Shown: positions 26,727 to 44,748 of the stretch, piece by piece
Numbering within the stretch: the stretch's first letter is position 1
Layout of the letters: each line of letters begins with the position of its first letter
Assembly: GCF_029338395.1 (NCBI RefSeq)
Contig: NZ_CP119809.1
Span: 186,001 to 250,000, forward strand
Reading direction: 5' to 3'
Origin: Halorussus caseinilyticus
GTDB taxonomy: Archaea; Halobacteriota; Halobacteria; Halobacteriales; Haladaptataceae
DNA length: 64,000 nt
Translations under genes and position numbers: made by a program
The notes under the pieces: generated by a model
What the model saw: only the letters and a program-made list of their open reading frames with translations
What the model was told of the DNA's origin: nothing
Database searches by the model: none

Positions 26727-27599
26727 TTGAAAAGACGAAACTTACTCAAGAAACTCGGTGGTAGCGCGACAGCAGTGACTCTGGCGACCCAGTCGGTACT
26801 CGGCGACGAACCCGAGGTGGCACGGACGATAGACTTGGACACGTCCAGTAATCCGCACCTCGACAGCGTCACGGTGACCCTCTACGCGGACGGTCGGAAG
26901 AACGTCCGGATGTCGGGAACCGCGCCGGCGGAGGCGACCGAAATCAGCGGATACAGCGTCCGACTGCTCGGCCTCTCGAACGCTCAGGGTGAGTACACGC
27001 CCTCGCAGGCGAGCGCCCGAGTCCAGGCGGTCCCGGCCAGCGAGGTCATCTCGTCGAACGACTCCGGCGGTACGGTGAACGGTGAGAACTCCGGGTCGGG
27101 CTCGGACGGCACGTCCAGCGACTCGGACTTCGGCACTGCGAGTCACGGCGGTAATGACGGTCAGAGCGACTACGAAGGTGGTATCTGGGTCCGCTCGGAG
27201 GACTCGGTGGACCTCGACCTCGCCTACACCGAGGGCTGGATCGACTGGACCACCAGCGGCGGTGAAGTCGACTACGTCGACTGGAAGTGGCACGCCGTTC
27301 CGTGTGACACCGGCTGTTCGACGTGGTACATCGAGGATGCCGGCCACAACTACTCGGACTTCGCGGGCGACACCGTCGAAGTAAAGTTCCACGGCGACTT
27401 CTACAATTACGACTTCCCGAGCGACGGCGGGCGGACGGAGGCTCATCACCGACTCTGGACCACGGGTAACCCCGACGGCTCGATGGACTGGACGACCGAC
27501 CACTGGCACAGCGGCGAGCACGCGTGGTCGCTACGCACCGACGCGGGCTGGTTCGACAAGTACGACGAGCACGCGAACCACTGTGCGCAGGGCTGCTGA
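26727..27599 (+). CDS. Tat-exported protein of unknown function, paralogue B
   Basis: A 290-residue paralogue of the preceding gene with the same order: Tat signal MKRRNLLKKLGGSATAVTLA, a beta-rich part (VTVTLYADGRKNVRMSGTAP), a Ser/Gly linker and the C-terminal domain with IWVRSEDSVDLDLAYTEGWI and DWTTSGGEVDYVDWKWHA. Extra Cys residues (CDTGCSTW and the final QGC) suggest disulfides. The start is TTG at 26727, supported by gaggtga at 26713-26719, a rare clear Shine-Dalgarno in this window, and by the signal peptide beginning right there. Confidence 0.75.
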   Translation: MKRRNLLKKLGGSATAVTLATQSVLGDEPEVARTIDLDTSSNPHLDSVTVTLYADGRKNVRMSGTAPAEATEISGYSVRLLGLSNAQGEYTPSQASARVQAVPASEVISSNDSGGTVNGENSGSGSDGTSSDSDFGTASHGGNDGQSDYEGGIWVRSEDSVDLDLAYTEGWIDWTTSGGEVDYVDWKWHAVPCDTGCSTWYIEDAGHNYSDFAGDTVEVKFHGDFYNYDFPSDGGRTEAHHRLWTTGNPDGSMDWTTDHWHSGEHAWSLRTDAGWFDKYDEHANHCAQGC

Positions 27600-30619: not shown

Positions 30620-32035
30620 TCACAAGCCGATGGACTTCTCGTCGGCCTCCCCCGCTGGCGGCAGTGACCGAAGCGCGGGGTGAGCGAGGAAGTAGAGACC
30701 GAACAGCGGCAACGCCGCCCCGAAGAGGTACAGCACCGTCTCGGTGCCGACGTACCCGCCCATCGTCCCGCCGAACAGCGCACCGGTGGGTGCCATAATC
30801 GAAGTCGCGCCCTTCACGAGCGAACTGACCCGGCCCAAAAGCGACTCGTCTACGGCCGACTGGACCAACGTGAACACCATCACGTTGAACGTCCCCGGAA
30901 AGACGGCGGTGGCGAACAACAGGGCCGCAGTGGGCCACGTCCCCGGAACGGTGACGGCACCTGCCAGCGTCACCCCGGCTATCGGATAGCCGACGATGGT
31001 GACGCGACTGACCGAGCGCTCCTCGACGAGGAACGCCCCGGCGCTTCCGACGAACGTCCCGGCACCGATGGCCGCGAGCAACACGCCGTAGGCGTCGGGA
31101 CCGCCCAGCGACTCGGCGAACGCCGGAAGCACCGCGTCGGCCGCCATGAAGCCGAAGTTGATGACCATCGCGCTGAAGATTATCGGGACGAGCGCCGACC
31201 CTCGGACGTAGTCGATGCCGTCACGGAGTTCCGAGAGGTACGACTCGACGGCCCCGCCGTCGGTCTCTCGGGACGACTCGCTTGGCCCGCCGTCGCTCTC
31301 CTGCGGCGACCCGTCCGGTCCGTCGTCGTCCCGTTCGTCGCCGGTCTTCGTGCCGCCGTCGCTCGCGGCTTCTACGTCTCGCTCGCGGCCGTCAGACCTC
31401 TCGCGTTCGGTCTCGTCGCTCTCGCTCGTCTCGCCCGACTTCGGAACGCTGACGCCGAGAAACAGCACCGCGGCGACGGCAAACGTCACCGAGTCCACGA
31501 CGAACAGCGAAGTCGCGCTGACGAGCGCAATCAGCGCACCGCCGATGCCCTTGCTCACCGTGTCGATTGCCCGGACGGAAGTCGAGAACAGCGAGTTGGC
31601 CTTCGTCAGTTGCGCCTTCTCCACGACTCGGGGGAGCGCGGCGTTCTGGGCGGGGTAGACGAACCCGTTGACGAACGTCAGCAACGGCACGAGGACGACG
31701 AGCAACCATATCGAGAGATGGCCCAGCGCCGCCGCCGCGGGGACGACCAACACCCCGACGCCGTTGAGAACCTGCGTGGCGACGAGGACCCGCCGCAACT
31801 CCCACCGGTCTACGAGCGGACCGACCAAGAAGTTGAGCGCGGTCGGAATCTGGACGAGTGCGACCGCCAGTCCCGTGTAGAACGTGGAGTTCGTCAGTTC
31901 CCACACCAGCCACATCGTGGCGACGAAGTAGAGCGAGTCGCCGGTGTCGGTGATGACTCGCCCGCCGAAGAGTCTCAGGAAGGTGGCGTTTCGGAGCAAC
32001 TCGCGATAGCCACCGGCCCTTTCATACAGTCCCAT
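30620..32035 (-). CDS. MFS transporter (possible exporter of the lanthipeptide locus)
   Basis: A 471-residue major facilitator with about 12 helices, similar to the MFS_3/EntS-type drug or siderophore exporters. Motifs: FLRLFGGRVITDTGDSLYFV, ALNFLVGPLVDRWELRRVLV (motif A region) and GFVYPAQNAALPRVV. A long acidic loop (about 65 residues, full of Glu, Asp and Ser) sits between the two halves. The start at 32035 is chosen because the upstream frame runs antisense through the neighbouring gene. It diverges from the DUF6895-like gene beside the lanthipeptide enzymes and could export the product; that link is positional only. Confidence 0.85.
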   Translation of the reverse strand: MGLYERAGGYRELLRNATFLRLFGGRVITDTGDSLYFVATMWLVWELTNSTFYTGLAVALVQIPTALNFLVGPLVDRWELRRVLVATQVLNGVGVLVVPAAAALGHLSIWLLVVLVPLLTFVNGFVYPAQNAALPRVVEKAQLTKANSLFSTSVRAIDTVSKGIGGALIALVSATSLFVVDSVTFAVAAVLFLGVSVPKSGETSESDETERERSDGRERDVEAASDGGTKTGDERDDDGPDGSPQESDGGPSESSRETDGGAVESYLSELRDGIDYVRGSALVPIIFSAMVINFGFMAADAVLPAFAESLGGPDAYGVLLAAIGAGTFVGSAGAFLVEERSVSRVTIVGYPIAGVTLAGAVTVPGTWPTAALLFATAVFPGTFNVMVFTLVQSAVDESLLGRVSSLVKGATSIMAPTGALFGGTMGGYVGTETVLYLFGAALPLFGLYFLAHPALRSLPPAGEADEKSIGL

Positions 32036-32141
32036 GCGGAGGGAATTTTTAACCCTGTAACAAGTATTTTGCTCTCCAATCGGTTTTCCGCGCGGTTCGA
32101 GATGGACAAAGTATTTTTCCGGTAGCCTTCGTCCACGAATT

Positions 32142-33485
32142 ATGAGCGACGAGGCTTCGACGGACGACGTTCGGGAGGCGTTCGACCCGACGCCCCGAGT
32201 TCCGGACCGAGACGTACCCGCGATGGCCCGACGACTCGAAGCGACGACCACCTCGTGGGTAGAAGGCCACGCCGACCGCTTCGACCCCTTCCGGTGGGAG
32301 GACAAACGCGAGCAGAACCTGCGTCGGAAGGCGTTCGGCGAGGCGGGTCTCTACCTCCTGCACGCCCACGAACTCGGCGGCGGCGACGACCTGCAATCGC
32401 TTTCGAGCGTCGTCGCCGACCACGCCAACGACGAGCGATACTTCCGCCTCCTCCAGCGCCGTCCCACGATGGTCCGGAAGTTCGCGTACCCCGCGCTCTA
32501 CGCCGACCGGTCCGGAAACCTGCGCGACGACCGACTCTCGGGCCGCCTCACCGAACTCCTGAACGACGAGGCGGTGTGGGCGAAACAGCGCACCTCCTTC
32601 GAGCGGTTCGACCTCTGGCACGTCGCCAAACTCTCGGGCGTCGAACCGCCCTTCTCGACCGACGGACTGCTCGCAGGGTCGCCCCTCGCCCACCGACCCG
32701 ACCCGTTCCGCGCGACGGCCAAGGACGTGAACGGACTCGTCCACGAACTCATGTTCTGGCGCAATCTCGGCATGGACGCCGCGGGCGCGTCGTTCCCGGA
32801 CGAACCCGCACCCGGCGGCGACCTGCGCGAAGTTCTCACCCTGCTTCTGTTCCGGTACGTGGCCGAACAGAACTACGACGTGGGCCTCGAAGTGGTCATG
32901 TCGGCCGTCCTGCAACGGACGGTCGCCCCCGACTTGGTGCGGACGTTCGTCGGCCACGCCCTGTCTCGCGCGGAAGAACTCGGCTACCTGCCCAAGAGCG
33001 AGTCGAGTCTCGACTCGGACCCCCGGTTCGAGCGCTTCTCGGCGTCGGCCTCCGAGTGGGCCACCCACTACCACGCCAATCTGGTCGCGGGGTTCGCAAG
33101 CCGGGTCCTCTGCGACCACTGGGACGAGTTCGTCGCCGAGTCCGCGCCCGCCGAGAATCACGACTACGACCACGAGGACCTCCTGAAGATGGGCCGGATG
33201 GTCGAAGCCCTGATGGACTACGACCTGCAGTCGGGCGCTCGCCGACTCCGTGACCTCGCCGGAACGTCCGTGGCCGCGGCGTATCCCGAGGCGTTCGACG
33301 CCGCCGTCCGGTTCCTCCGGAACCAGCGCCGCCCGGACGGGACGTTCGGCTACTGGACCGACGTGCGCTCGAAGTACGTCTCGCTGACCGGCGACGGCGA
33401 GCGCTTCGACGAGGAAATCGTCGAATCGACGACCGAGGCGTGTTCGGCGGCGCTGGCGGAAATCGACCAACTGGCGTCCGAGTAG
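32142..33485 (+). CDS. DUF6895-like alpha-helical protein beside the lanthipeptide enzymes
   Basis: A 447-residue soluble, helix-rich protein. The C-terminal part (FDAAVRFLRNQRRPDGTFGY) has the Q-x-x-PDGTFGxW motif of alpha/alpha-toroid repeats seen in terpene-cyclase-like and DUF6895 proteins. Earlier blocks include NLRRKAFGEAGLYLLHAHEL and DVNGLVHELMFWRNLGMDAA. I recall DUF6895 members near peptide-modification genes, but no enzyme activity is established. Its stop lies 6 nt from the stop of the convergent LanC gene. A TATA-like tatttttccgg lies about 30 nt upstream. Confidence 0.6.
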   Translation: MSDEASTDDVREAFDPTPRVPDRDVPAMARRLEATTTSWVEGHADRFDPFRWEDKREQNLRRKAFGEAGLYLLHAHELGGGDDLQSLSSVVADHANDERYFRLLQRRPTMVRKFAYPALYADRSGNLRDDRLSGRLTELLNDEAVWAKQRTSFERFDLWHVAKLSGVEPPFSTDGLLAGSPLAHRPDPFRATAKDVNGLVHELMFWRNLGMDAAGASFPDEPAPGGDLREVLTLLLFRYVAEQNYDVGLEVVMSAVLQRTVAPDLVRTFVGHALSRAEELGYLPKSESSLDSDPRFERFSASASEWATHYHANLVAGFASRVLCDHWDEFVAESAPAENHDYDHEDLLKMGRMVEALMDYDLQSGARRLRDLAGTSVAAAYPEAFDAAVRFLRNQRRPDGTFGYWTDVRSKYVSLTGDGERFDEEIVESTTEACSAALAEIDQLASE

Positions 33486-33491
33486 GCCCCC

Positions 33492-34682
33492 TCACTCGAA
33501 CCGCGTCACCGACGGCAACTCGTCGGGGCGGACCAACCGCAAGAGCGCGTAGCCGATTCCGGCGGTTCCGGCGAAGAAGGTGGGGTCGTACAGTCCGCGC
33601 GAGCGATGGGCTAACTCGTAGTGGCCCTGCGACTCCTTGCGCTCGATTGCTCGGTCGGCCAAGCGCCGCGCTTGCTCGGCGTACTCGCCGTCCCCCGTGT
33701 GGCGCGACAGGTCCACGAGGAGGTTGACTTGGGCGAAGGTGCCGTCGCAGACGGCGTCCGACCGACCCAACTCGGGGTCGAAGGCGTCGAGTCGGTCCAC
33801 GTCCCGCGCCACGGCGTCGGACTCGCAGTACTCCGCGCTCCCGAGTCGCGCGCTCCCGACGCCAGCGAGTCCGAACCGCCACCCGAGTTGGTAGTGTGGC
33901 AGGAAGACCCAGTTGCTCCGCCAGTTTCGCTCGCGGTCCGAGTAGAAGGCGTTCTCGAACGCAATCGCGTCGTCGGCCGCCCGCCGGAACTCGTCTCTGC
34001 CGGTGTGGTCGGAGAGGCGGTAGAGCGCGTAGGCGATTCCCGCCGCGCCGTGGCCCATCCCGGTCGAAAAGCTTCGGACGCCCTCGTCCCAACTCGTGTC
34101 CCACACGCGATACCCCCACTTGTCGTACCGGTCGTCCAACAGGTGTTCCCCGCACCGAACTGCGCGCTCCTTCGCAACCGACGCGCCCGACCGCTCGTAG
34201 AGTCCCAACAGTCCCGTCAGCGCGCCCGCCGCGCCGGTCAGCACGTCGTAGCGTTCGTCGCCGCGAATCGCCTCGGCGGTTATCTCGCGGGCGAACTCGA
34301 CCGCCAACTCCTCGTACCGGGTTTCCCCCGTCAGTTCGTGCATCACCGAGAGACCGTAGACGAGCGCGCCGGTCCCGGTGCCCGCTCCGAGACCGACGCC
34401 CTTGACCAGTTCCCCGGTCTCCTCCTCGAACAGGTAGCGAACCGCGTCGTAGGCCGACTCTCCGTAGGACTCGCCCGGAAAGCAACGGTGCATCGCGGCG
34501 AAGTACGTGGCCACCCCCAACTGTCCGGAGTACAGTCCCTTCTGGCCTCGCAGGGAAGGTTTCCCCTTTGAGGACCCGTAGCCGACCCACCCGGCGTCGC
34601 CGCCCGGCAGGTCGAACCGGGCGTCCGCCACGTCGTCGGCTATCGCTTCGGCCTCCTCGCGCAGTGTCTCGTTCGGTATCAT
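33492..34682 (-). CDS. LanC-type lanthionine cyclase (separate from LanM dehydratase)
   Basis: A 396-residue toroid protein corresponding to the cyclase half of a class II LanM. Family blocks: KGLYSGQLGVATYFAAM (49-65), ELVKGVGLGAGTGTGALVYG (91-110), GMGHGAAGIAYALYRL (208-223, with His211) and the C-terminal FAGTAGIGYALLRL (370-383). It should add Cys thiols to dehydrated Ser/Thr. Two of three canonical zinc ligands appear lost: GWRFGLAGVG (267-276) has Arg269 where GWCxGAPG is expected, and VCDG (311-314) replaces CHG. Its ATG overlaps the dehydratase stop as TGATG, so the two are translated together. Confidence 0.88.
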   Translation of the reverse strand: MIPNETLREEAEAIADDVADARFDLPGGDAGWVGYGSSKGKPSLRGQKGLYSGQLGVATYFAAMHRCFPGESYGESAYDAVRYLFEEETGELVKGVGLGAGTGTGALVYGLSVMHELTGETRYEELAVEFAREITAEAIRGDERYDVLTGAAGALTGLLGLYERSGASVAKERAVRCGEHLLDDRYDKWGYRVWDTSWDEGVRSFSTGMGHGAAGIAYALYRLSDHTGRDEFRRAADDAIAFENAFYSDRERNWRSNWVFLPHYQLGWRFGLAGVGSARLGSAEYCESDAVARDVDRLDAFDPELGRSDAVCDGTFAQVNLLVDLSRHTGDGEYAEQARRLADRAIERKESQGHYELAHRSRGLYDPTFFAGTAGIGYALLRLVRPDELPSVTRFE

Positions 34683-36586
34683 CACAATCTGTTTCCGGGT
34701 AGCTCTCGCTCGCTCTCGGGCACGTCGGAACCGCGGAGACACGACTCTATCAGTCCGGTCTGGAAGGTTCGGTCCTCGGCGGACAACCGGTCGATTCGAC
34801 GCTGGACGCGTTCGAGACCCGCCGCCGCCGACCGGCACACCGTCTCATCCTCGAAGGTAATCGCCTCCGCGTCGGCCGAGGTGTGGAACTTCGGCACGTC
34901 CCGCCGGAGCAACGCTTCGCGCTCCGCCGCGACGATTTCCGAGACCGACTCCGGCGTGGTCGTGGAGTACTCGGCCCACGTCTTCGAGAGGGTGTCGCGT
35001 ATCTCGTTCCCGAAGACGACGCCGTTTCGCAGGGGCGTGGGGTTCGTCAGCGTGTTCAGAAGCGACTCGTACTGGGCCGTGTCTTGGAGGACGCATCTGA
35101 GTCGTACCCCGTCGAACCGGTCGGTCACGTCGTCTTTCACCTCGTCCGGGGCGCTCGCAACCGCGTCGTAGGCCGCCTCGAATCCCTCGACTATCCGGTC
35201 TGCGAACAACTCCGGCGGCGCGGGGTCGCCCTCGTAGAGCGGGTAGTTCTCGTCGTCCTCGACTCCGGGTCGCCGGTACTCGAAGTCCATCGCGTCCGTG
35301 TTGACGTGCGTCCAGACGAGCGTCCGGGTCGTCGCTCGCTCGGCGTCGTTCACGCCGAGTCCGGACTTGTCGGTCTCGCTTCGCGCGTCGTGCAGTTGTA
35401 CCATCTGGGTCTTGAGGACGCTCGACTCGTGGACTTCCTTTCGCAACTTGTCGAACAACTCCGTCCGGGGCACCTCGTACAGCGACGGTGCCAGCACGGT
35501 TTCGGCGTCTACCAGCACCGCCGACTCGTCGCTGGCTAGCAGGTTCTCGCCGTGGCAGTCCGAGACGTTCAACAGGTACAGCACGAACGACAGCGCCCCC
35601 GTCTTCCGGTAGTACCGCTCGACATCCGACTTGCTCGTCAGGGTCGCCCGTTCGACGCTCTCCATCCACCCGTAGTCCCCGCGAGTTCGCAGGGCCGGAG
35701 TCGGGAGCGTCGGAAACGCGTCGAACCGGTCGGCCAACCAGTTCAAAAAGCCGTAAAACTCCCTCTCGGCGTCGAGTTCGCGGGGTTTGTAGAACACCTC
35801 GCCGCGCTCGAACTCGACGCGAAACACCGACCTCCCGCGCTCGTGTGGGTCACCGTTGGATTCGACGCGCGCCACGTCGCCGACGGTCCCCTCGCCGACC
35901 ATCCCGCAGATGTCGTCGTAGTCGGCGTGCAGTCGCTCGGCGAACTCCGCGACCGATTCGCGCCACTGGGTCGTGACGACCGAGAGCAGTCGGGCCACCA
36001 TCGCGTACTCCTCGAAGAACGACTCCATCCGACCGTCGTAGAACGCCCGGACGTAGCTCTCGTACCACTCTCTGGAGTCGGGGGACCGCCGCTCGTCCGC
36101 GATAACCTCCGGGTCTCGCTCGACGATGAACCTGATAAAATCGAGGTGAAGCGGCTGTGCGCAGAGGTCGGTCAACCGGTCGAGCAACTGGGCTTCGAGA
36201 CTCGCTATCGCGTCGTCGGATAGTCTCGCCGTTGGTGCCGAGTCGAGGACACTCTCGACGCAGTGGTCGGCAATCGGAGCGACGATTTCCCGAAAGGGAA
36301 CCTCGCGGCGCTCCCCGCCCGAGAGGGGTTCCCGAACCGACTTCAGGCGGTCGTAAACGTCGCCGAACGCTTCGACCCAGTCGGGCAACTTCTCGTTGGG
36401 CCACGTTTCGAGGTTCGCGTACTCGACGGCGTCGCTCCCGAAGTTCTCCCGGAGTTCCTCGGCGAGCGACTCGTCTACGTAGTCGAACGCTTCGAGCGTG
36501 GTTCCGTCTTCGGTCGGCGCGCGGTGGCCGTCGTCGATTCGCTCCTGAATCAGTTCCGCGGACGCCGCGAGGTTCCTGACATCCAT
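34682..36586 (-). CDS. LanM-type lanthipeptide dehydratase (DUF4135), stand-alone
   Basis: A 634-residue protein matching the dehydratase half of class II LanM enzymes, which phosphorylate Ser/Thr of a precursor peptide and eliminate phosphate. Kinase-like motifs are intact: GDPHERGR (245-252), YKPR (266-269), SDCHGENLLA (342-351) and VDAETVL (359-365). Further conserved blocks are WTHVNTDAMDF (425-435), then VRLRCVLQDTAQYESLLNTL and EREALLRRDVPKF. Typical LanMs are about 1000 residues with a fused cyclase; here the cyclase is the next gene. A TATA-like GTTTATC lies about 25 nt upstream. The precursor genes begin about 75 nt further upstream. Confidence 0.93.
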   Translation of the reverse strand: MDVRNLAASAELIQERIDDGHRAPTEDGTTLEAFDYVDESLAEELRENFGSDAVEYANLETWPNEKLPDWVEAFGDVYDRLKSVREPLSGGERREVPFREIVAPIADHCVESVLDSAPTARLSDDAIASLEAQLLDRLTDLCAQPLHLDFIRFIVERDPEVIADERRSPDSREWYESYVRAFYDGRMESFFEEYAMVARLLSVVTTQWRESVAEFAERLHADYDDICGMVGEGTVGDVARVESNGDPHERGRSVFRVEFERGEVFYKPRELDAEREFYGFLNWLADRFDAFPTLPTPALRTRGDYGWMESVERATLTSKSDVERYYRKTGALSFVLYLLNVSDCHGENLLASDESAVLVDAETVLAPSLYEVPRTELFDKLRKEVHESSVLKTQMVQLHDARSETDKSGLGVNDAERATTRTLVWTHVNTDAMDFEYRRPGVEDDENYPLYEGDPAPPELFADRIVEGFEAAYDAVASAPDEVKDDVTDRFDGVRLRCVLQDTAQYESLLNTLTNPTPLRNGVVFGNEIRDTLSKTWAEYSTTTPESVSEIVAAEREALLRRDVPKFHTSADAEAITFEDETVCRSAAAGLERVQRRIDRLSAEDRTFQTGLIESCLRGSDVPESERELPGNRL

Positions 36587-36662
36587 CTTGCGCTCACACC
36601 TGCCGATAAACTTGGCTCGGTATCGGCTAAAATATCCGGTGATAAAAAACTGCGGCGTCTGA

Positions 36663-36779
36663 CTACGCGGTGATGGAACACCAGTTGTCGGCTAACTGCT
36701 GTTCGGGGGCGTCTTCGTCGCTGTGGTCCTCTTCGAATTGTTCGATGAGTTCGTCCGGACTGATGTTTTCAGCGGACAT
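36663..36779 (-). CDS. Lanthipeptide precursor-like peptide 1 (38 aa)
   Basis: Leader MSAENISPDELIEQFEEDHS, then DEDAPEQQLADN and the core end WCSITA. It shares the S-P-D-E-x-I-E-Q-(F/L)-E leader and the W-C-x-I-T-A end with two further genes upstream. The only Cys is C34; Thr37 lies three residues after it, and no Thr precedes it in the core. Its own TATA box (36803-36817) is about 30 nt before the ATG. It is the precursor nearest to the dehydratase gene, in the same direction. Acidic leader plus a Ser/Thr/Cys end is what LanM enzymes use; no mature product is known. Confidence 0.8.
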   Translation of the reverse strand: MSAENISPDELIEQFEEDHSDEDAPEQQLADNWCSITA

Positions 36780-36802
36780 GTGACACACTAAAACAATATG
36801 CT

Positions 36803-36817
36803 CATTAAAACTTTTGG
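36803..36817 (-). promoter_or_regulatory. TATA box of precursor gene 1
   Basis: On the minus strand, ccaaaagttttaatg lies about 24-38 nt before ATG 36779. It resembles the elements before precursors 2 and 3 (AAAG-T/C-TT-T/G-A). Confidence 0.65.
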
Positions 36818-36885
36818 CTGATGTGGAGCATCTTGGTTCTCCGGTTCGTCGGCGGTGCCGGAACCGAAGAATCGACAGCTAACCG

Positions 36886-37014
36886 CTACTCTTTGGACGG
36901 CTCTTGGGCGGTGATGGCGCACCACGCGTCGTGGGTCGGCGGGTTGTCGTCCTCGCCGTGGCCTTCTTCGAGCTGTTCGATGAATTCATCCGGACTGACA
37001 TCTTCTGCGAATAT
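36886..37014 (-). CDS. Lanthipeptide precursor-like peptide 2 (42 codons, ATA in place of ATG)
   Basis: In frame from 37014 the codons read ATA-TTC-GCA-GAA, then DVSPDEFIEQLEEGHGEDDN, PPTHDAWCAITA and QEPSKE. This aligns over its length with precursors 1 and 3, but the codon matching their ATG is ATA, preceded by TTT and an in-frame TGA. No ATG, GTG or TTG is available before the leader motif. The TATA box at 37042-37055 keeps the usual distance. Either the gene has lost its start codon recently, or ATA is used on a leaderless mRNA. The core keeps THDAWC and WCAIT. Confidence 0.6.
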   Translation of the reverse strand: MFAEDVSPDEFIEQLEEGHGEDDNPPTHDAWCAITAQEPSKE

Positions 37015-37041
37015 AAATCAGAATACTAACTGCCCTGTCCA

Positions 37042-37055
37042 CATTAAAGCTTTCC
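37042..37055 (-). promoter_or_regulatory. TATA box of precursor gene 2
   Basis: Minus strand ggaaagctttaatg, 28-41 nt upstream of the ATA codon, with the same spacing as in the sister genes. Confidence 0.6.
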
Positions 37056-37080
37056 GAGAAAAATGCGCCGCTACTGCGCC

Positions 37081-37203
37081 TTATTCCTTGGTCGCGGTGA
37101 TGGTACACCAAGCGTCGTGGGTCGGCGGGCTGTCGTCTTCGCCGCTGTGGTCGTTTTCGAACTGTTCGATCATTTCGTCGGGGCTAATGTCTTCAGCAGA
37201 CAT
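37081..37203 (-). CDS. Lanthipeptide precursor-like peptide 3 (40 aa)
   Basis: Leader MSAEDISPDEMIEQFENDHS, then GEDDSPPTHDAWC and TITATKE. One Cys (C33) is preceded by Thr28 and followed by Thr34, Thr36 and Thr38. Leader residues 1-16 are nearly identical to precursor 1, while the core matches precursor 2 (PPTHDAWC), so the three genes form a tandem family with recombined parts. Start ATG 37203 is supported by the TATA box at 37226-37244. An in-frame ATG at 37323 would add a non-homologous extension and is rejected. Confidence 0.82.
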   Translation of the reverse strand: MSAEDISPDEMIEQFENDHSGEDDSPPTHDAWCTITATKE

Positions 37204-37225
37204 GCATTGCTTTAATTCCGGCCCA

Positions 37226-37244
37226 TGCTTTATCAAACTTTTCC
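37226..37244 (-). promoter_or_regulatory. TATA box of precursor gene 3
   Basis: Minus strand ggaaaagtttgataaagca, about 23-41 nt before ATG 37203. Confidence 0.6.
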
Positions 37245-37383
37245 AAGAGAAAGTACCGACGTAACTGCTATTCTCCGGCGGGGGGCATCCGAATACGCTA
37301 CTTTCACGCACCGAACGCACCATTTATTGGAATAATTCAGAAGGATAAAAACAACTAAGTGAGGAGAATATCTGAAAGCAAGT

Positions 37384-38640
37384 ATGGAAATCGGCTACGT
37401 AGACTACGGGTATCCGAGCTATCCGTTAAAAAAGTTGGACAACGGTTACGTAATCGCCGACGTTTCTATGGACGAAGTTCACCGGAACCATCAGAAACAG
37501 GTGGAAAATCAAGTGGAGGTCGCCGTTACCGCCGACGAACTCGGGTACGACTACGCTCTCCATCCGGAACACCACTTCCTGATGCAGAACGGGTCTGCCA
37601 ACAATCCCCTGTTCACGCAGTCCGCGGTCGCTTCCCGGACCGAGGACATCCGCTTGCTCCAGACCGCCATCATCCTCCCGTGGAACGAACCGATTCGCAT
37701 CGCGGAACAGGCCGCGATGCTCGACATCCTCAGCGACGGCCGCGTTGACATCGGCATCGGCATCGGGACGAGAACGCTGGAGAACGAACCGCTCGGACAG
37801 TACTGGGGCGCGTCGTCGCAAAACCGGGCGGAGGCGTGGGAGTCGTTCGAGGAGAAGTACGAGATACTGGTTCAGGCGTGGACCGAGAACTTCGTGGACC
37901 ACCACGGCACCTTCCACGACGTTCCCCCGAAACACACCATCTGGGAGAACAAACACGACTACTACTACCTGAAACACACCGAGGACAGTCCCGCGCCGAC
38001 GGAATTCATGTCCGCGGAAGGCGACGAGGTTACGCTGAACTCTCTGCCTATCTTCCCCCAACCGAAACAGGACCCGCACCCGATGATGTGGCGTCCCACC
38101 ATGTCCGAGGGGTCGGTGAAGTGGGCGGCAGAGCGCGGCATCAACGGGGCCGTCCTCCCCGGCACGATTTCGCAGGCGAAGAACCTGATAGACACCTACT
38201 ACGAAGTCGCGGAGGAAGCGGACTGGCCCGACCACCGACCCGAACACGACGGCGAACCGTTCAAGTTCGGTTGGGACGCCGACCGACGCCGCGGCGTCGC
38301 CTGTTGCGTGACGGTGTTCAACACCGATGTCGCAGACGACGAGACGCTCGAACGCTGGCGACTCGGCCAAGAGTTCGTCCAGAGTAACAACATCGGCGCG
38401 AAACCCGACGTTAGCGGGGCCGCAATCGACGCGACGCCGCAAATTGAGTCCGACGAGACGCTCCCGATGGTGACGGACACCGAGGGAATCATCGAGAGAA
38501 TCACCGAACTTAAAGAGGCCATCGGCTACGAGGACTTCATCCTGTTCGTGAAGGCGAGCAACCCCGGCCTGTCCCGTGAGGAGACCGAGGCACAACTCCG
38601 AGCGTTCTCCGAGGAAGTCGCGCCGCACTTCGAGGAGTAA
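37384..38640 (+). CDS. LLM-class flavin-dependent oxidoreductase (luciferase-like)
   Basis: A 418-residue TIM-barrel flavin enzyme of the bacterial-luciferase-like superfamily. LGYDYALHPEHHFLMQNGSA contains the E-H-H-F motif (62-65) typical of LuxA-type monooxygenases. RVDIGIGIGTRTLENEPLG is the usual glycine-rich flavin phosphate segment, and MWRPTMSEGSVKWAAERGIN is a late conserved block. It diverges from precursor gene 3 across an AT-rich 180-nt region, which places it in the lanthipeptide locus. It could oxidise the peptide. Some members of this superfamily are F420-dependent reductases that convert dehydroalanine to D-alanine in lanthipeptides (LxmJ in lexapeptide). Confidence 0.85.
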   Translation: MEIGYVDYGYPSYPLKKLDNGYVIADVSMDEVHRNHQKQVENQVEVAVTADELGYDYALHPEHHFLMQNGSANNPLFTQSAVASRTEDIRLLQTAIILPWNEPIRIAEQAAMLDILSDGRVDIGIGIGTRTLENEPLGQYWGASSQNRAEAWESFEEKYEILVQAWTENFVDHHGTFHDVPPKHTIWENKHDYYYLKHTEDSPAPTEFMSAEGDEVTLNSLPIFPQPKQDPHPMMWRPTMSEGSVKWAAERGINGAVLPGTISQAKNLIDTYYEVAEEADWPDHRPEHDGEPFKFGWDADRRRGVACCVTVFNTDVADDETLERWRLGQEFVQSNNIGAKPDVSGAAIDATPQIESDETLPMVTDTEGIIERITELKEAIGYEDFILFVKASNPGLSREETEAQLRAFSEEVAPHFEE

Positions 38641-38671
38641 CCAGCGGTTCCGACTCCGTTTCAACTCTCTC

Positions 38672-39391
38672 ATGTTGAGTCCCGTCGCCACCGTCGCCTC
38701 CGAAGACGCCTCGGTCGAAGTCGCCGTCGAATCGAAGACGCTGACCGTCGGCGGGACCGACGAGGTCGAAATCGGCGTCAGCGACACGTCCGGCGAGTTC
38801 CGCGTCGAGTCGCTGGACCTCGAAATCGGCACGTACTGCCGCACCTCCGGCGGGTACGAGCGCGTTCCCGTCGAACGCTTCGCGTTGGCCGACGGGCTTT
38901 CGGCCGATTCCGGATTCACCACCACTCGCGTCGAATCGGTCTCGCTCCCCCACACCGCGCCGACCTCCATCGGGTCGGTCGATGCGTGGGCGCGGACGAC
39001 GATAGCGACCGCCGACTCCACTGAGACCCGAGAGACCTACGTCAACCTCCACCCGAGTCCGACGTTTCTGGCGGTCTTCGACGCCGTAATCGACGCGGGA
39101 TTCGCGTTCCGGGACATCGAGTGCTATCGGCGTCCGGACACCGACCGGCGTCGGTTCGACCAAGCGTTGGCGTTTGTCCCGCGGTCCGGCCCCTACGAGC
39201 GAGCGATGGACGAACTCCTGCTGGTCGTCCACGCGGAACCCGACACGTTAGAGGTGTATGCGGCCGCCGACGCCACCTACGACGAACTCCGGCCGGTCGG
39301 CGAGACGACGCCGACCGTCTTACCGGCCGACGCGGACGAAAAGCGGTGCGCCGCCGAACTCGACTCGCTCCTCGGCGAGCGATTCGGATGA
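38672..39391 (+). CDS. Spo0M-like (arrestin-fold) protein
   Basis: A 239-residue soluble protein. The N-terminal half (VEVAVESKTLTVGGTDEVEI, VESLDLEIGTYCRT) and the later VNLHPSPTFLAVFDAVIDAG, FAFRDIECYRRPDTDRRRFD and YERAMDELLLVVHAEPDTLE fit the SpoOM/Spo0M family, which has an arrestin-like beta-sandwich. In Bacillus Spo0M affects sporulation; its archaeal role is unknown. It lies 31 nt after the LLM gene in the same direction, so co-transcription is likely, but a role in peptide modification is not obvious. Confidence 0.7.
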   Translation: MLSPVATVASEDASVEVAVESKTLTVGGTDEVEIGVSDTSGEFRVESLDLEIGTYCRTSGGYERVPVERFALADGLSADSGFTTTRVESVSLPHTAPTSIGSVDAWARTTIATADSTETRETYVNLHPSPTFLAVFDAVIDAGFAFRDIECYRRPDTDRRRFDQALAFVPRSGPYERAMDELLLVVHAEPDTLEVYAAADATYDELRPVGETTPTVLPADADEKRCAAELDSLLGERFG

Positions 39392-39428
39392 CCGGTCGGT
39401 AGCGCGAGCAAGTGAACTGCGAACTCCG

Positions 39429-39460
39429 GCGCGTCTCGCCGCGTCCGCGGCGAGACGCGC
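39429..39460. repeat. GC-rich hairpin, 15-bp stem, between convergent genes
   Basis: gcgcgtctcgccgcg (39429-39443) pairs with 39446-39460 across a 2-nt loop. It lies between the stops of the Spo0M-like gene and the halogenase. The arms contain GCGAGACGC, also seen in the palindromes at 50136 and 62214. Confidence 0.85.
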
Positions 39461-39469
39461 GATGAACGA

Positions 39470-40954
39470 CTACCCGTAGAACTCGTCGTACGACAGGTAC
39501 TCCTCGACCGATTTCTGTATCTCCTCGTAGGATTCGTCTATCGCGCTCGCGATTTCGGGTCGCACGTCGAGGTCGAGGTTTTGATAGAACTCCGACTCGA
39601 CGCCGAACCCTCGCAACACCCGGAAGTACGCCCAGTGGGGGAAGCGGAACGGTCCGAGCGGAACTTCGAGACCCTTGTCCAATTCCTGATGGAGGTGGAA
39701 GCCGTTCTGCTGGTAGTGGGTGTACTGGGGCACCGTCTTCTCGCTGTTGACCGACTGCACGTCCTCCCAGAACTCGGTGCCACCGGGCGCGTGCTTGTAG
39801 TGGATGCTGATGTACTCGTACACGTCCCGCCACGCGCGCGAGGTGAAGGTGTTGTAGAGGCTACGCACGCCCTGATTGTTGAGTTGGTAGCCTTTCTCGA
39901 CCAACTCGGCGAACTTTTTGGCGAACAGCGCGCTCTGGGTCAGCGCGGTCGATTGCAGGGGTTCGATGAATCCCAGCGCGTTCCCGACGGCCACGCAGTT
40001 GCCCACCCACGCCTTCTCGTAGTATCCCGACTCGAACTCGTACTCTTGGATGTCGGCTTCCGAGATGTCCTCCTTGCGGGTCTCCATCATCTCGGCCTTG
40101 GCTTCCTCGGCCGACATGTGCGACGACGAGTAGACGTACCCGAGGTCCCGGCAGTCGTAGGTGTCGATTTGCCAGAACCACCCCGCCTCGCCCGACTCGA
40201 TGACCGTCGCGGGGACGACTTCCGACAGCGGAAGGTCGGTCTGGGCGACGACGGCGGCGTCGATGGGCAGGTCGAAGTGGTTGTACTCGTTGTCCAGATT
40301 CCGCATCAGGAGTCGCTTGAATCCCGTCGCGTCCACGTAGAGGTCGGCGTCGTACTCCGTGGCGTCGCTGGCGATGGTCGCTATCTCCTCGTCCTCGACG
40401 CGGACCTCCTCGATTCGGTCGTCTATCAACTCAATTTCCCGCTCCTCGCACAGGTCTTCGAGCAGGTCGTTGAACCGCTTGAGACTCAGGTGATAGGAGA
40501 TGTGGGGGTAGCGGTCGCCGTCCTTCGACTTGAAGGGGGTCTTGCCCTGCTCCACGAACTCCGTGTTCGGCGTCCGGTACTCGTGGTTCCGGTACCGGTA
40601 GTACATCTCTTCGAGTTGCTGGTCGGACTTCTCGGTCAGGGGAAAGAGGTCGTCGTCGAACGGCAGGTGGAACGAGTCGCGGCCACACCAGTCCTCGAAG
40701 TGTATCGACGCCTTCCAGACGGGTTTGGCTTCCTCGATGAACCGGTCCTCGTCGATGTCGAGTACGCCGTGGAGTATCGTCCGGAGGTGGTTGATGGTAC
40801 TCTTTCCGGTCTCCGGGGGGTCCTCGTCGAAGTCGTCGACGACCGTGACGCGGAACCCCGGATTTATCTCCTTCACGAGCAGTGCTGTGAGAAGACCGAC
40901 ATCCCCGCCACCGACGATAGCTACCTCGTCAACGTCGTAGCTCGTGGCTGTCAT
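39470..40954 (-). CDS. Flavin-dependent tryptophan halogenase homologue
   Basis: A 494-residue FAD-binding protein of the tryptophan-halogenase family, which uses FADH2, O2 and halide to halogenate aromatic rings. The Rossmann motif is VAIVGGGDVGLLTALLV (11-27). GKSTIN (50-55) sits where halogenases have GxGEAT. The catalytic Lys is likely K81 (PVWKASIHFEDW). The W-x-W-x-I-P fingerprint appears as WFWQID (259-264), with Asp for Pro. C-terminal blocks WVGNCVAVGNALGFIEPLQS and WRDVYEYISIHYK are clear. A flavin reductase partner is not adjacent. The conserved Trp next to Cys in the precursor cores is a plausible substrate. Its promoter is AT-rich (40960-41000). Confidence 0.87.
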   Translation of the reverse strand: MTATSYDVDEVAIVGGGDVGLLTALLVKEINPGFRVTVVDDFDEDPPETGKSTINHLRTILHGVLDIDEDRFIEEAKPVWKASIHFEDWCGRDSFHLPFDDDLFPLTEKSDQQLEEMYYRYRNHEYRTPNTEFVEQGKTPFKSKDGDRYPHISYHLSLKRFNDLLEDLCEEREIELIDDRIEEVRVEDEEIATIASDATEYDADLYVDATGFKRLLMRNLDNEYNHFDLPIDAAVVAQTDLPLSEVVPATVIESGEAGWFWQIDTYDCRDLGYVYSSSHMSAEEAKAEMMETRKEDISEADIQEYEFESGYYEKAWVGNCVAVGNALGFIEPLQSTALTQSALFAKKFAELVEKGYQLNNQGVRSLYNTFTSRAWRDVYEYISIHYKHAPGGTEFWEDVQSVNSEKTVPQYTHYQQNGFHLHQELDKGLEVPLGPFRFPHWAYFRVLRGFGVESEFYQNLDLDVRPEIASAIDESYEEIQKSVEEYLSYDEFYG

Positions 40955-41119
40955 TGTTGGTTCCCTATGCGCTATTAAAATAAATTTTCCGGCTTTTACA
41001 ACGATACATAGTCGGTCGGCCGAGCGATTCCGGCGACCGCTTCGGGCCGAGGTTCCTCCGAACGGAGTCCCGCGCGCGCCTTCGCAATCCACAAGGTGGC
41101 TTCGCGCCAACGGTTCTCC

Positions 41120-41935
41120 ATGGCGCTGTCCGACCGCGAGTGGCGGCTGATTCGAGAGGAGTCCCGACCCGGCCAGCTCAACATGGCTTTGGACGAAATC
41201 GCGGCCGAGACCGCCGCTAACGGCGGTCCTCGGACGGTCCGGGTCTACCAGTGGGACCCCAGCACGCTGTCGCTGGGCTACCGGCAGGCGACCGACACCG
41301 TGGCGTGGGACTACTGCGACCGCGAGGGCATCACCGTGACTCGCCGACCCACGGGCGGGGGCGGCATCTACCACGACCGCCACGGCGACATCTCCTACTC
41401 CATCGTCGCGCCCGCCGAGGAACTGCCGGGAGACCTGATGGACACCTACGAATTGCTCTGCGAACCGGTCTTCGACGCCTTCGACCGACTCGGCATCGAC
41501 GCCCGCTTCACCGACGAGAAACTCCCCGAAATCCACCAACCGGCCTGCTACCTCCGGGAACTCCACCCGGCCCACGACGTGGTGGCCGGAGCGGACGGAC
41601 GAAAGATTTCGGGCAACGCCCAGTACCGCCGGAAGGACGCAATCATCCAGCACGGGTCGCTCAAGTTCGACGCGGACGCCGAGCGTCACCTCGCCACGTT
41701 CGCCGACCCCGAGACGACCCCCGAGGAGTTCCGCGAGCGCGTGACCACGATGCGCGAGCAGTCGGGCGCGAGTAGGGGCGAAGCGGTCGAGGCCGTCGAG
41801 GAAGCACTCGGCGAGTGGGCCGACGCTGGGGAGGGGAGTTGGACCGACGAGGAACTGCGGCGCGCCCGAGAGCGCGCCGAAGAGAAGTTCGAGAGCGGGG
41901 CGTGGGTCCGAGAGCGAGAGGACCCCACGGAGTAA
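41120..41935 (+). CDS. Lipoate-protein ligase A family protein
   Basis: A 271-residue enzyme of the LplA/LipB/BPL fold, which attaches lipoate or octanoate to lysines of 2-oxoacid dehydrogenase and glycine cleavage proteins. Motifs: RVYQWDPSTLSLGYRQATDT, TRRPTGGGGIYHDRHGDISY (acyl-AMP loop), GADGRKISGNAQYRRKDAII and HGSLKFD. The C-terminal region adds an acidic helical tail (EEALGEWADAGEGSWTDEEL). ATG 41120 is preferred over GTG 41096; either is possible. Not obviously related to the neighbouring lanthipeptide locus. Confidence 0.9.
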   Translation: MALSDREWRLIREESRPGQLNMALDEIAAETAANGGPRTVRVYQWDPSTLSLGYRQATDTVAWDYCDREGITVTRRPTGGGGIYHDRHGDISYSIVAPAEELPGDLMDTYELLCEPVFDAFDRLGIDARFTDEKLPEIHQPACYLRELHPAHDVVAGADGRKISGNAQYRRKDAIIQHGSLKFDADAERHLATFADPETTPEEFRERVTTMREQSGASRGEAVEAVEEALGEWADAGEGSWTDEELRRARERAEEKFESGAWVREREDPTE

Positions 41936-41961
41936 CGCCATCCGGGACGCGAGTGTTCGCG

Positions 41962-42276
41962 CTACCCCGTCCGGCCGTGGTAGTAACTCTGTTCGCCAGC
42001 GCCCGTATCCACGACGCGGCGGTCCAGCGCGCCGTTGTCCACGAGTCGGTCCAGAATCGCGCTCACCGTCGCCACGTCCAGCACCCACCCGACGTGTTCG
42101 TCGTCTTCGAAGGGGTGTTCGACGTTCGACTCCGACCACCCGATGTCCATGACCGCCTCGGTGACTTCCTGAACGTTGTACGCCTGCTGGTCGTTCTCCT
42201 GTAGGAACGACAGGACTCGCTCCTCGATGGAGTATCGCTCCCCGCCTCGTTCGAAGGTGTCGAGGCTGATAGGCAC
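41962..42276 (-). CDS. Hypothetical winged-helix-like protein
   Basis: A 104-residue protein with a GTG start ([20 protein letters not shown]). The layout suggests a winged helix: [60 protein letters not shown] and a final [17 protein letters not shown] wing. It could be a small transcription regulator. It diverges from the endonuclease IV gene; no closer assignment is possible. Confidence 0.65.
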
Positions 42277-42405
42277 ACGTCGGCTAGGTCCCGAAGTCCA
42301 ATAAGCGTGTGGTCCGGTAGAACACTGCAAGGGTCGGTCGGCGGCGTCGGGGAGTCCGACCCCGGTTCCGAAGCGCCTTTCACCCCTCCATCCCTGCCCG
42401 AACAC

Positions 42406-43236
42406 ATGAGAGTTGGCGCGCACGAATCCATCGCTGGCGGCGTCTACAACGCCGTGGACGCCCAAATCGAGGACGGGGGAAACTGCGGACAGATATTCAC
42501 ACACTCCCCGCAGGTGTGGCAGGACCCGAACATCGGCGACGACGAGGCCGAGCGGTTCCGGTCGCTGTCGGCCGAGAACGACGTGGGTCCGTGGGTCATC
42601 CACTCGTCGTACCTCGTGAACCTCTGTACGCCGAAAGACGACCTGCGCGAGAAGTCCATCGACTCGATGCAGAAGGAAGTCGAGGCCGCCGACAAGTTGG
42701 ACATCCCCTACGTCAACGTCCACCTCGGCGCGCACACCGGCGCGGGCGTGGACGGGGGTCTCGACAACGCCGCGAGCGCGCTGGACGAGTTGGAGATTCC
42801 CGAGGGCGTGACGGTCCTCATCGAGAGCGACGCCGGGTCCGGCACGAAATTGGGCGGCGACTTCGAACACCTCGCGGAGGTCCTCGCGCGCTCCGAACAG
42901 GACCTCGACGTGTGCATCGATACGGCCCACGCCTTCGCCGCGGGCTACGACCTCTCCAGCGAGCAAGCGGTCCACGACGCCATCGCGGAGTTCGACGACG
43001 TGGTGGGACTGGAGCATCTGGAGTGCGTCCACCTCAACGACTCCAAACACGAGTGCGGCACGAACAAGGACGAACACGCCCACATCGGCGAGGGACTCAT
43101 CGGCGAGGAAGGGATGCGGGCCTTTATAAATCATCCCGACCTCGCGGACGTACCGCTGGTGCTGGAGACGCCCCACGAGGACGGCAAGGGCTTCGCGTGG
43201 AACATCGAGCGCGTTCGGGAACTGCGAAAAAAATGA
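42406..43236 (+). CDS. nfo: Endonuclease IV (AP endonuclease)
   Basis: A 276-residue TIM-barrel DNA repair enzyme that cuts at abasic sites using three zinc ions. Family signatures: [17 protein letters not shown] at the start, [63 protein letters not shown] and [20 protein letters not shown] followed by GEGLIG. All metal-ligand motifs are intact. Length fits the family (about 280). The ATG at 42406 starts directly with the conserved strand. Confidence 0.93.
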
Positions 43237-43251
43237 GTCTCGGGAACGACG

Positions 43252-43842
43252 ATGGTCGTCGCTGACTCGACCTCTCGGCGCTCTCTCCTCCGTGCGTTCG
43301 GCGGTGTCGGTACCGGAGTACTCGCCGGATGCAGTAGACTCGGTTCGGACTCCCGACTGACCGTCGATGCGGCACCAGCGCCCGACGCACTCGAGGCGGA
43401 CCTCGGCGTATCGGTCGCCGACGGAATCTCGGCCGAGAGTCCCGCGATGCTCCGTATCAAGTGTGAACCCCACGGCAACTTTGCTACTCGCCTCGTCTTC
43501 GGTCCGTTGCCGCCGTTCTCGGGACTAGTCGGCGAAGGTCCCGATAGCGCGGCGCTGTGGCTCTATCCGATGGGTCCGGGGGAGAATCTGCCGACGGCGA
43601 ACGACGATACCGGTGCGTGCTGGCGGGGCGGACCCTACGAGCCAGAGTCGTCCGAAAACAGCATCTCCGTCGGTCCGGGCGGATTCGAGCGTCGGTATCT
43701 CGTCTACGCGACCCCCGACAACGAGCCGTGTATCCCGACCGACACCTACCGGTTCGTTTCAACCGAGTACGGCGTTCCGGGCGGACCGACCGGGTTGGAG
43801 TGGTCGTTCGAGGTGACTGTAACCGAGTCCGTTCGGACGTAG
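43252..43842 (+). CDS. Tat lipoprotein of unknown function
   Basis: A 196-residue exported lipoprotein: TSRRSLLRAFGGVGTGVLAG is a Tat signal followed by a lipobox Cys (GC at 26-27). The mature part is beta-rich (PAMLRIKCEPHGNFATRLVF, FERRYLVYATPDNEPCIPTD) with a few Cys residues that could pair. It starts 15 nt after endonuclease IV. No family is recognised. Confidence 0.7.
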   Translation: MVVADSTSRRSLLRAFGGVGTGVLAGCSRLGSDSRLTVDAAPAPDALEADLGVSVADGISAESPAMLRIKCEPHGNFATRLVFGPLPPFSGLVGEGPDSAALWLYPMGPGENLPTANDDTGACWRGGPYEPESSENSISVGPGGFERRYLVYATPDNEPCIPTDTYRFVSTEYGVPGGPTGLEWSFEVTVTESVRT

Positions 43843-43936
43843 AGCTTCGCTTTCCGACGACGGTCGGCGGCCCTTTCCCGGATGATTGGGCGAGACCGCC
43901 CCGCTTTTCACCGCCCGCCCCCAACGCCGAGTCACC

Positions 43937-44731
43937 GTGCGACAGTTCTCCGCCGACTACCTCCGGGACACGCGCCGCGGGATGTGGGACGACCGTTCTG
44001 CGCTCGCGGACCTCGAACTCGAAACGCGTGAGCGCGTCCTCGACGTGGGATGCGGCACCGGCGAACTCTCCAAAATCCTCGCCGAGGAGACGCCCGGCGA
44101 GGTGGTCGGCGCGGACGCCGCCCCCGACTTGCTCGCGGTCGCCAGCGAAGTCGTCCCCGTGGTCGCGGGCGACGCGCTCCGCCTCCCGTTTCCGGACGAC
44201 GCCTTCGACCTCGTGGTGTGTCAGGCCCTGCTCATCAACCTGCCCGACCCCGCCGCCGCGGTGCGGGAGTTCCGGCGGGTCTCCTCGGACCTCGTGGCGG
44301 CAGTCGAACCCGACAACGCCGCGGTGTCGGTCGAATCGACGGTCGAGGCGGAGAGTTCCCTCGCGGCGCGAGCGCGCCGGGCGTACCTGCGCGGGGTCGA
44401 GACCGACGTGACGTTGGGCGGCGAGGGCACCCGCGAGGCGTTCGAGACCGCCGGACTCGCGGACGTGGCGACCCGCCGCCACTACCACTCGCGGACGATT
44501 GAACCGCCCTACGCCGACCGCGACCTGCGCTCGGCCCGCCGAAAGGTCAGCGGCGAGGGACTGGCCGACGACCGGGCGACCCTGCTCGCGGGCGACCTCT
44601 CGGTCGAGGAGTACGACGACCTCCGGAGCGACTGGCGCGAGATGGGACGCAACGTGGTCGAACAGATGAGCGCGGGCGAGTACCGACGCGCCGAAGTCGT
44701 CCCCTTCTACGTCACGGTCGGGTCGGTGTGA
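43937..44731 (+). CDS. Class I SAM-dependent methyltransferase
   Basis: A 264-residue cytoplasmic methyltransferase with a Rossmann core: VLDVGCGTGELSKILAEE (motif I), VVGADAAPDLLAVAS (motif II), DAFDLVVCQALLINLPDPAA (post-II) and then VREFRRVSSDLVAAVEPDNA (motif IV-V). It is Methyltransf_11-like; substrate unknown. The GTG at 43937 is preferred; a TTG at 43886 would add 17 residues unlike the family. Confidence 0.8.
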   Translation: MRQFSADYLRDTRRGMWDDRSALADLELETRERVLDVGCGTGELSKILAEETPGEVVGADAAPDLLAVASEVVPVVAGDALRLPFPDDAFDLVVCQALLINLPDPAAAVREFRRVSSDLVAAVEPDNAAVSVESTVEAESSLAARARRAYLRGVETDVTLGGEGTREAFETAGLADVATRRHYHSRTIEPPYADRDLRSARRKVSGEGLADDRATLLAGDLSVEEYDDLRSDWREMGRNVVEQMSAGEYRRAEVVPFYVTVGSV

Positions 44732-44748
44732 GCGCGGCGAATCTTCCT

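Follow-up and report, generated by a model that had tools for sequence, protein, structure and literature searches.

A probable variant lanthipeptide locus in Halorussus caseinilyticus and its halogenase-family neighbour

Gene content of the locus

We analyzed a 64,000-nucleotide stretch of the Halorussus caseinilyticus genome (contig NZ_CP119809.1, positions 186,001-250,000, forward strand; hereafter the window), in which a region of about 10 kb carries genes of lanthipeptide type together with a gene of the tryptophan halogenase family. All the genes named in a preliminary description of this region (LanM-type dehydratase, LanC-type cyclase, precursors, luciferase-like LLM enzyme, DUF6895 protein, MFS exporter and halogenase homologue) were recovered, the proteins other than the precursors by family matches; however, that gene list had omitted a Spo0M-family gene, which separates the LLM gene from the halogenase homologue. 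The comparison set consisted of 392 haloarchaeal genomes, a sample of the order, and evidence was of two types, gene linkage and residue comparison. Genes in the compared neighbourhoods were called by a home-made program; their starts may be misplaced. The features of the region are as follows.

30620..~32035, minus strand: MFS transporter, candidate peptide exporter (Pfam PF07690/PF05977; start inferred)
32142..33485, plus strand: DUF6895 protein, candidate peptide epimerase (Pfam PF21836, E 3e-31)
33492..34682, minus strand: LanC-like cyclase protein (Pfam PF05147, E 4e-44), overlapping the LanM stop
34682..36586, minus strand: LanM-type dehydratase (DUF4135), no fused cyclase domain (Pfam PF13575, E 1.2e-90; TIGR03897, 365 bits)
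36663..36779, minus strand: LanA3 precursor, MSAENISPDELIEQFEEDHSDEDAPEQQLADNWCSITA, 38 aa; ATG open reading frame (ORF), with the leader and WCxIT core common to copies 1 and 2
36886..37014, minus strand: LanA2 precursor-like copy, (I)FAEDVSPDEFIEQLEEGHGEDDNPPTHDAWCAITAQEPSKE; ATA at the ATG position
37081..37203, minus strand: LanA1 precursor, MSAEDISPDEMIEQFENDHSGEDDSPPTHDAWCTITATKE, 40 aa; ATG ORF, with leader and core common to all copies
37384..38640, plus strand: LLM-family (luciferase-like) oxidoreductase, candidate dehydroamino-acid reductase (Pfam PF00296)
38672..39391, plus strand: Spo0M-family (arrestin-like) protein (Pfam PF07070, E 6e-20)
39470..40954, minus strand: Trp-halogenase-family flavoprotein (Pfam PF04820, 231 bits)

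Dehydratase and precursor peptides

The kinase motifs of the dehydratase, earlier described as intact, are indeed in place, and so are the lyase motifs: the segments GDPHERGR, VFYKPR, VSDCHGENLLA, LVDAETVL and VRLRCVLQDT retain the LanM consensus elements GDxHxRG, YKPR, DCHxEN and DxET as well as the lyase Arg and Thr. The protein is similar to LicM2/CylM, and its TIGR03897 score lies above the NCBIfam cut-off of 304 bits. The fused LanC domain expected of a class II LanM is absent, the dehydratase and the LanC-like protein being encoded by separate ORFs; short LanM frames (630-700 aa) were seen in about 10 further haloarchaeal cases. At least four LanM matches were present in each of two genomes of the same genus, G118 and G066, which suggests unusually many lanthipeptide loci there.

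Three precursor-like genes had been reported. Three related sequences with a common leader and WCxITA core do exist, but only two are clearly intact. In LanA1 and LanA3 alike, the leader reads SPDE-x-IEQFE and the core reads W-C-x-I-T; with an acidic conserved leader, Cys and Ser/Thr in the core and an adjoining lanM, they show the features of class II LanA peptides. LanA2 retains leader and core; its frame opens TGA TTT ATA TTC GCA. As ATA occupies the start position and ATG, GTG and TTG are all missing from the stretch that runs from the upstream stop to the leader, LanA2 is probably silent. An AT-rich box lies ∼30 bases upstream of every copy (TTTGATAAA, CTTTAATG, TTTTAATG; TTTTAAT in LanA3), an arrangement consistent with a separate leaderless archaeal promoter for each precursor copy. 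A scan for promoters and terminators with bacterial-type models, not meant for archaea, gave results no better than chance.

A profile of the three precursors run against the other 391 genomes gave no convincing match, weak partial ones only; thus, the WCxITA family was seen solely in this window. The leader element QFE-x-x-H resembles precursors of two related loci, L102 and L104. Cores of related loci, KACGSLTCFW (L104), GCPIATCLV (L102) and ESCVSLSCW (L103), have the same Cys-x-x-Ser/Thr spacing; however, they contain another Cys, and their first Cys is not preceded by Trp. Among the loci compared, an invariant Trp just before Cys was present only in the precursors of this window.

LanC-like protein

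A LanC-type cyclase had been claimed as well. A LanC-like protein is certainly encoded, but two of its three zinc ligands are gone, which makes assured ring closure doubtful. The motifs W-R-F-G and C-D-G stand in place of W-C-x-G and C-[HC]-G of relatives; these changes are Cys to Arg and His to Asp, with one Cys ligand kept, so that the ligand set of zinc-dependent LanC proteins (Cys, Cys, and His or Cys) is incomplete. The closest LanC relatives, those of L102 and L104 (49% identical), keep all three ligands; therefore, the loss arose in this lineage.

Ligand-poor LanC proteins were found in 5 of ∼37 haloarchaeal LanC domains compared (this one, L088, L093, L111 and L113). Of the four LanM loci that adjoin an LLM gene, three had such a LanC, versus two of the 33 others (Fisher p 0.005), in a post hoc comparison of few, possibly related, loci. 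The LanC proteins of L111 and L113 (genomes G317 and G024) carry Ser-[Ser/Ala]-Asp at the zinc-ligand positions, near the Ser-Phe-Asp pattern of the class III cyclase ThurKC.

ThurKC has no zinc; it has Asp at the position of NisC His331, and this Asp is required for cyclization (PMC10604976). Since ThurKC cyclizes zinc-free with Asp at the matching His position, metal-independent cyclization by the LanC-like protein of the window is possible by analogy; a loss of function is possible likewise.

The latter option brings in the wider one that decay or a recent rearrangement has affected the locus, which then yields no finished lanthipeptide. The zinc ligands are missing though sister LanC proteins retain them, LanA2 has lost its start codon, and a flanking block of genes, from lplA to a methyltransferase gene, is inverted in comparison with other members of the genus. 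Nevertheless, we hold decay to be unlikely: every enzyme frame is open and long, the dehydratase motifs are intact, the leaders of LanA1 and LanA3 differ by five synonymous codon changes against three amino-acid-changing ones, and Asp at the His position is what a working metal-independent cyclase has.

Recurrent partners of haloarchaeal LanM genes

Genes of the DUF6895 family were found in 8 of the 392 genomes, at 11 places, five of them no more than a few kb from a LanM gene; 10 haloarchaeal members of the family have a set of invariant residues in common. Thus, the DUF6895 protein of the window combines a PF21836 match with RiPP linkage (RiPP, ribosomally synthesized and post-translationally modified peptide), as expected of a peptide epimerase; the title of an article in ACS Catal. 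2026, cited in PMC13352647, calls DUF6895 an epimerase in lasso peptide modification. The structural model of the protein is helical (pLDDT 83), with no fold match in the PDB at E <0.001.

The best NCBIfam match of the LLM protein was TIGR03619 (F420 family), with a score below cut-off. Its four closest relatives (44-52% identity; two in G031, the others in G008 and G174) all adjoin LanM, together with an MFS gene. MFS homologues stand beside LanM in L088, L091, L093, L106 and L110, and Spo0M genes are near LanM in L102 and L104 also. In the biosynthesis of the lanthipeptide lexapeptide, the F420 luciferase-like enzyme LxmJ reduces dehydroalanine to D-Ala (PMC8498797). By analogy with their relatives, the presence of DUF6895 and LLM proteins suggests D-residues in the product.

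The true module is thus a split LanM plus LanC, with DUF6895 and LLM plus MFS, recurrent beside haloarchaeal LanM genes.

DUF6895 genes at other loci

Six haloarchaeal DUF6895 loci carry short acidic ORFs, often in tandem, with a DLTE/DLTA-type leader in common. Five of the six have no LanM (L167, L168, L169, L170 and L172), and the sixth, L106, has a degenerate one. The ORFs are located as follows.

L167: 8538-8802
L168: 8971-9491
L169: 6391-7170
L170: 7631-7768
L172: 7614-7754
L106: 14460-14908

Examples are MSSEMTDLTEEVSDEEDVWKGSVALISL in L167, where a second copy differs at one residue, and MTSELTIGELTELTEDGTEKRADYIAGWSDWVLAVDE in L169. Four tandem copies in L106 end with IAWITW, IAWISW or FKIITW. 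In this locus, a LanM-like dehydratase with degraded kinase motifs (L106:9322-11058; TETFGTHRAL, HDCSADNLVV) adjoins DUF6895 and the tandem peptide ORFs, which are Cys-free; no LanC match was found near it. ABC transporter, S9 peptidase or MFS genes adjoin most of the loci with DLTE/DLTA ORFs. Judged by sequence, these ORFs look like precursors of a DUF6895-modified, possibly undescribed archaeal RiPP family, the support being the repetition itself. They offer short peptide genes that are directly testable.

The halogenase homologue

The preliminary description had pointed to halogenase motifs in the 39470..40954 gene product. Family match, fold and catalytic Lys bear this out: among PDB entries, MibH came out first by sequence (E 9e-40 with a single sequence, 2e-64 with a profile), RebH, BrvH and MibH were matched by fold (TM score ∼0.78), the flavin adenine dinucleotide (FAD) motif is present, and the Lys corresponding to PrnA K79 (PVWKAS) is conserved in 28 of 28 homologues. 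Other motifs are altered. At the position of the catalytic Glu (PrnA E346), all 28 haloarchaeal homologues have Gln (EPLQST or EPLQAT), whereas the best PDB relatives have Glu. Asp replaces Pro of WxWxIP (GWFWQID) in all 28, and GKST replaces GE[AS]T in nearly all (three near-identical sequences have GQGT and one is without the segment). Viral relatives were seen on two contigs (28% identity, Glu kept).

In PrnA, the change E346Q makes the enzyme ∼100-fold slower (PMC5727139). Since the Lys is invariant, hypohalite chemistry could still be possible, and the clade may represent a separate, conserved type of enzyme and not an inactive one. The members of this Gln-bearing haloarchaeal clade (28 loci: L002-L008, L068-L087 and the window) are mostly stand-alone genes, some on plasmids. 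An open-access search for literature on haloarchaeal halogenases returned nothing relevant, which is weak evidence of absence.

Repeated co-occurrence of halogenase, dehydratase and WCxITA precursors had been proposed as a check on their connection; for halogenase and dehydratase, it was not observed. The halogenase homologue was present in 25 genomes (29 listed minus four weak partial matches) and LanM in 38 of the 392; three genomes had both, with 2.4 expected, and the two genes were adjacent only here. In the other two shared genomes they are on different contigs, while two genomes of the same genus, G102 and G130, have the halogenase homologue and no LanM. Linkage to LanM was seen at 1 of 29 halogenase-homologue places, that of the window, so that conserved linkage of the MibH kind is missing (the Fisher linkage comparison used 27 places; the list holds 29). 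In 20 fetched loci and seven loci from the GTDB collection, the gene sits among unrelated genes, with no LanM and no conserved partner; neighbours include isoleucyl-tRNA synthetase, mechanosensitive-channel-like and glycosidase-like proteins (names read from sequence), and copies reside also on haloarchaeal plasmids. A role of the halogenase as conserved lanthipeptide partner was rejected on chance-level co-occurrence and flanking genes.

The model put forward initially, in which the enzyme chlorinates or brominates the conserved core Trp as MibH does in NAI-107, draws on the retained Lys, on MibH as the best PDB sequence match and on the fact that the sole LanM-adjacent copy stands beside the sole precursors with a conserved Trp before Cys (n = 1). 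However, with Gln in place of Glu throughout the clade and a corresponding PrnA mutant so slow, with co-occurrence at chance and homologues in congeners devoid of LanM, with no flavin reductase gene seen in the region and the gene itself in a separate transcription unit past Spo0M, we consider such halogenation quite improbable.

The Glu to Gln and GKST changes, found across the clade, point to a modified chemistry, and one could speculate that the protein oxygenates the peptide Trp in the manner of QhpG, an enzyme that dihydroxylates protein-bound Trp. QhpG is similar to FAD halogenases and has a peptidyl Trp as its substrate (PMC7876137), and a weak partial QhpG match (41 bits) was found; this score, though, is far under the 240-bit cut-off, the Lys characteristic of hypohalite chemistry never varies, and the linkage data are as unfavourable as they are for halogenation. 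Oxygenation would thus be very unlikely.

Genomic setting

Spo0M and the halogenase homologue are transcribed towards each other, and lplA is transcribed away from the halogenase homologue; this places the latter outside the LanM transcription unit. In most members of the genus examined, lplA lies divergently beside a homologue of the 45002 gene, followed by nfo-like and methyltransferase genes, with a TauE-like gene 3-5 kb further on in five of them. In the window, the lplA-nfo-methyltransferase block (41075-44735) has the opposite orientation to that in genus members. All of the 30.6-41.0 kb region is located between TauE and lplA, on the lplA side of the inverted block. This region is an island specific to the genome and could derive from one acquisition or from several.

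For the halogenase homologue, composition does not decide between these, as GC and GC at third codon positions (GC3) point different ways: its GC (0.61) equals that of the LLM gene (0.61), while its GC3 (0.87) matches the rest.

Elsewhere in the window, two adjacent genes (25717-26577 and 26727-27599) encode proteins of secreted type that are paralogues and carry twin-arginine-like signals (MNRRSVLKKIGG, MKRRNLLKKLGG).

Interpretation of the locus

The dehydratase motifs, the precursors and the recurrent partners support the assignment to a haloarchaeal lanthipeptide-type RiPP locus, made already in the preliminary description; its further claim of a halogenated thioether peptide found no support, given the chance co-occurrence and the Gln in place of catalytic Glu. 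We think it probable that the locus specifies a variant haloarchaeal class II-type lanthipeptide and that the halogenase homologue is an independent neighbour that does not halogenate the peptide.

The dehydratase, its motifs being in place, would phosphorylate and eliminate Thr/Ser in the W-C-x-I-T-A core of the two intact precursors. Cys three residues before Thr could then close a small reverse (Cys-before-Thr) thioether ring; the C-x-x-[ST] spacing is found in related loci too. With two LanC zinc ligands lost, ring closure may be metal-independent as in class III, spontaneous or absent. From the names of their relatives and recurrent linkage, the DUF6895 protein (whose presumed role goes back to the cited title) may epimerize a residue of the core, and dehydro-residues may be reduced to D-amino acids by the LLM enzyme; the MFS protein would presumably export the product.

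Several points weigh against this interpretation. The conserved-Trp precursors and the LanM-adjacent halogenase homologue were both found only here, as a joint acquisition would look. The loss of LanC ligands, like the start-less LanA2, also fits decay. Finally, the DUF6895 and LLM roles are putative and based on family resemblance, in the case of DUF6895 as worded in a cited title.

A bolder proposal, which we offer tentatively and regard as having rather less than an even chance, is a class II pathway in archaea where a tiny thioether peptide with D-residues would arise through the combined action of a free-standing LanC that works without metal, an epimerase of the DUF6895 family and a reductase of luciferase-like type; separately, DUF6895 would define an undescribed archaeal RiPP family with DLTE/DLTA leaders. 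A halogenated archaeal lanthipeptide drops from the likely products of the locus, and the questions raised concern zinc-free class II cyclases, D-amino acids introduced into archaeal RiPPs via DUF6895 or LLM, and the role of Gln-bearing halogenase homologues.

Comparison with known systems

Class II lanthipeptides known in haloarchaea are archalans, sallans, larlans and medlans (PMC10105419, PMC12144867); the sallan has a Cys1-Ser5 ring, so that Cys-before-Ser/Thr rings are documented in haloarchaea (PMC12144867). The locus of the window has in common with these systems the halobacterial LanM-type dehydratase, short acidic precursors, possible Cys-before-Ser/Thr rings and a clustered exporter. 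It differs in having LanM and LanC separate, the latter without its zinc ligands, in the addition of DUF6895, LLM and Spo0M genes, and in WCxITA precursors not found elsewhere.

The resemblance to ThurKC lies in the absent zinc ligands and in Asp at the NisC His331 position. The LanC protein described here, however, is free-standing and of class II type, keeps one Cys ligand and has Arg at the first ligand position; the ThurKC pattern S-F-D is closer to S-[SA]-D of L111 and L113.

LxmJ (LanJC) and the archaeal LLM protein are both luciferase-like fold enzymes encoded with lanthipeptide genes. LxmJ, however, belongs to a class V actinobacterial pathway, and the archaeal protein, likened to it by family only, is a candidate reductase. 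Similarly, the DUF6895 protein shares Pfam family and RiPP locus setting with its lasso-peptide counterpart, as far as the title cited in PMC13352647 tells; here, the setting is an archaeal lanthipeptide-type locus and the epimerase role is putative.

In NAI-107 (microbisporicin), too, a halogenase-family protein is encoded near lanthipeptide genes and the core contains Trp; within the PDB, the sequence of the archaeal protein matches MibH best. That system, however, is bacterial and has other biosynthetic genes; MibH has Glu (EPLES), whereas the archaeal protein has Gln and is unlinked to lanthipeptide genes in other genomes.

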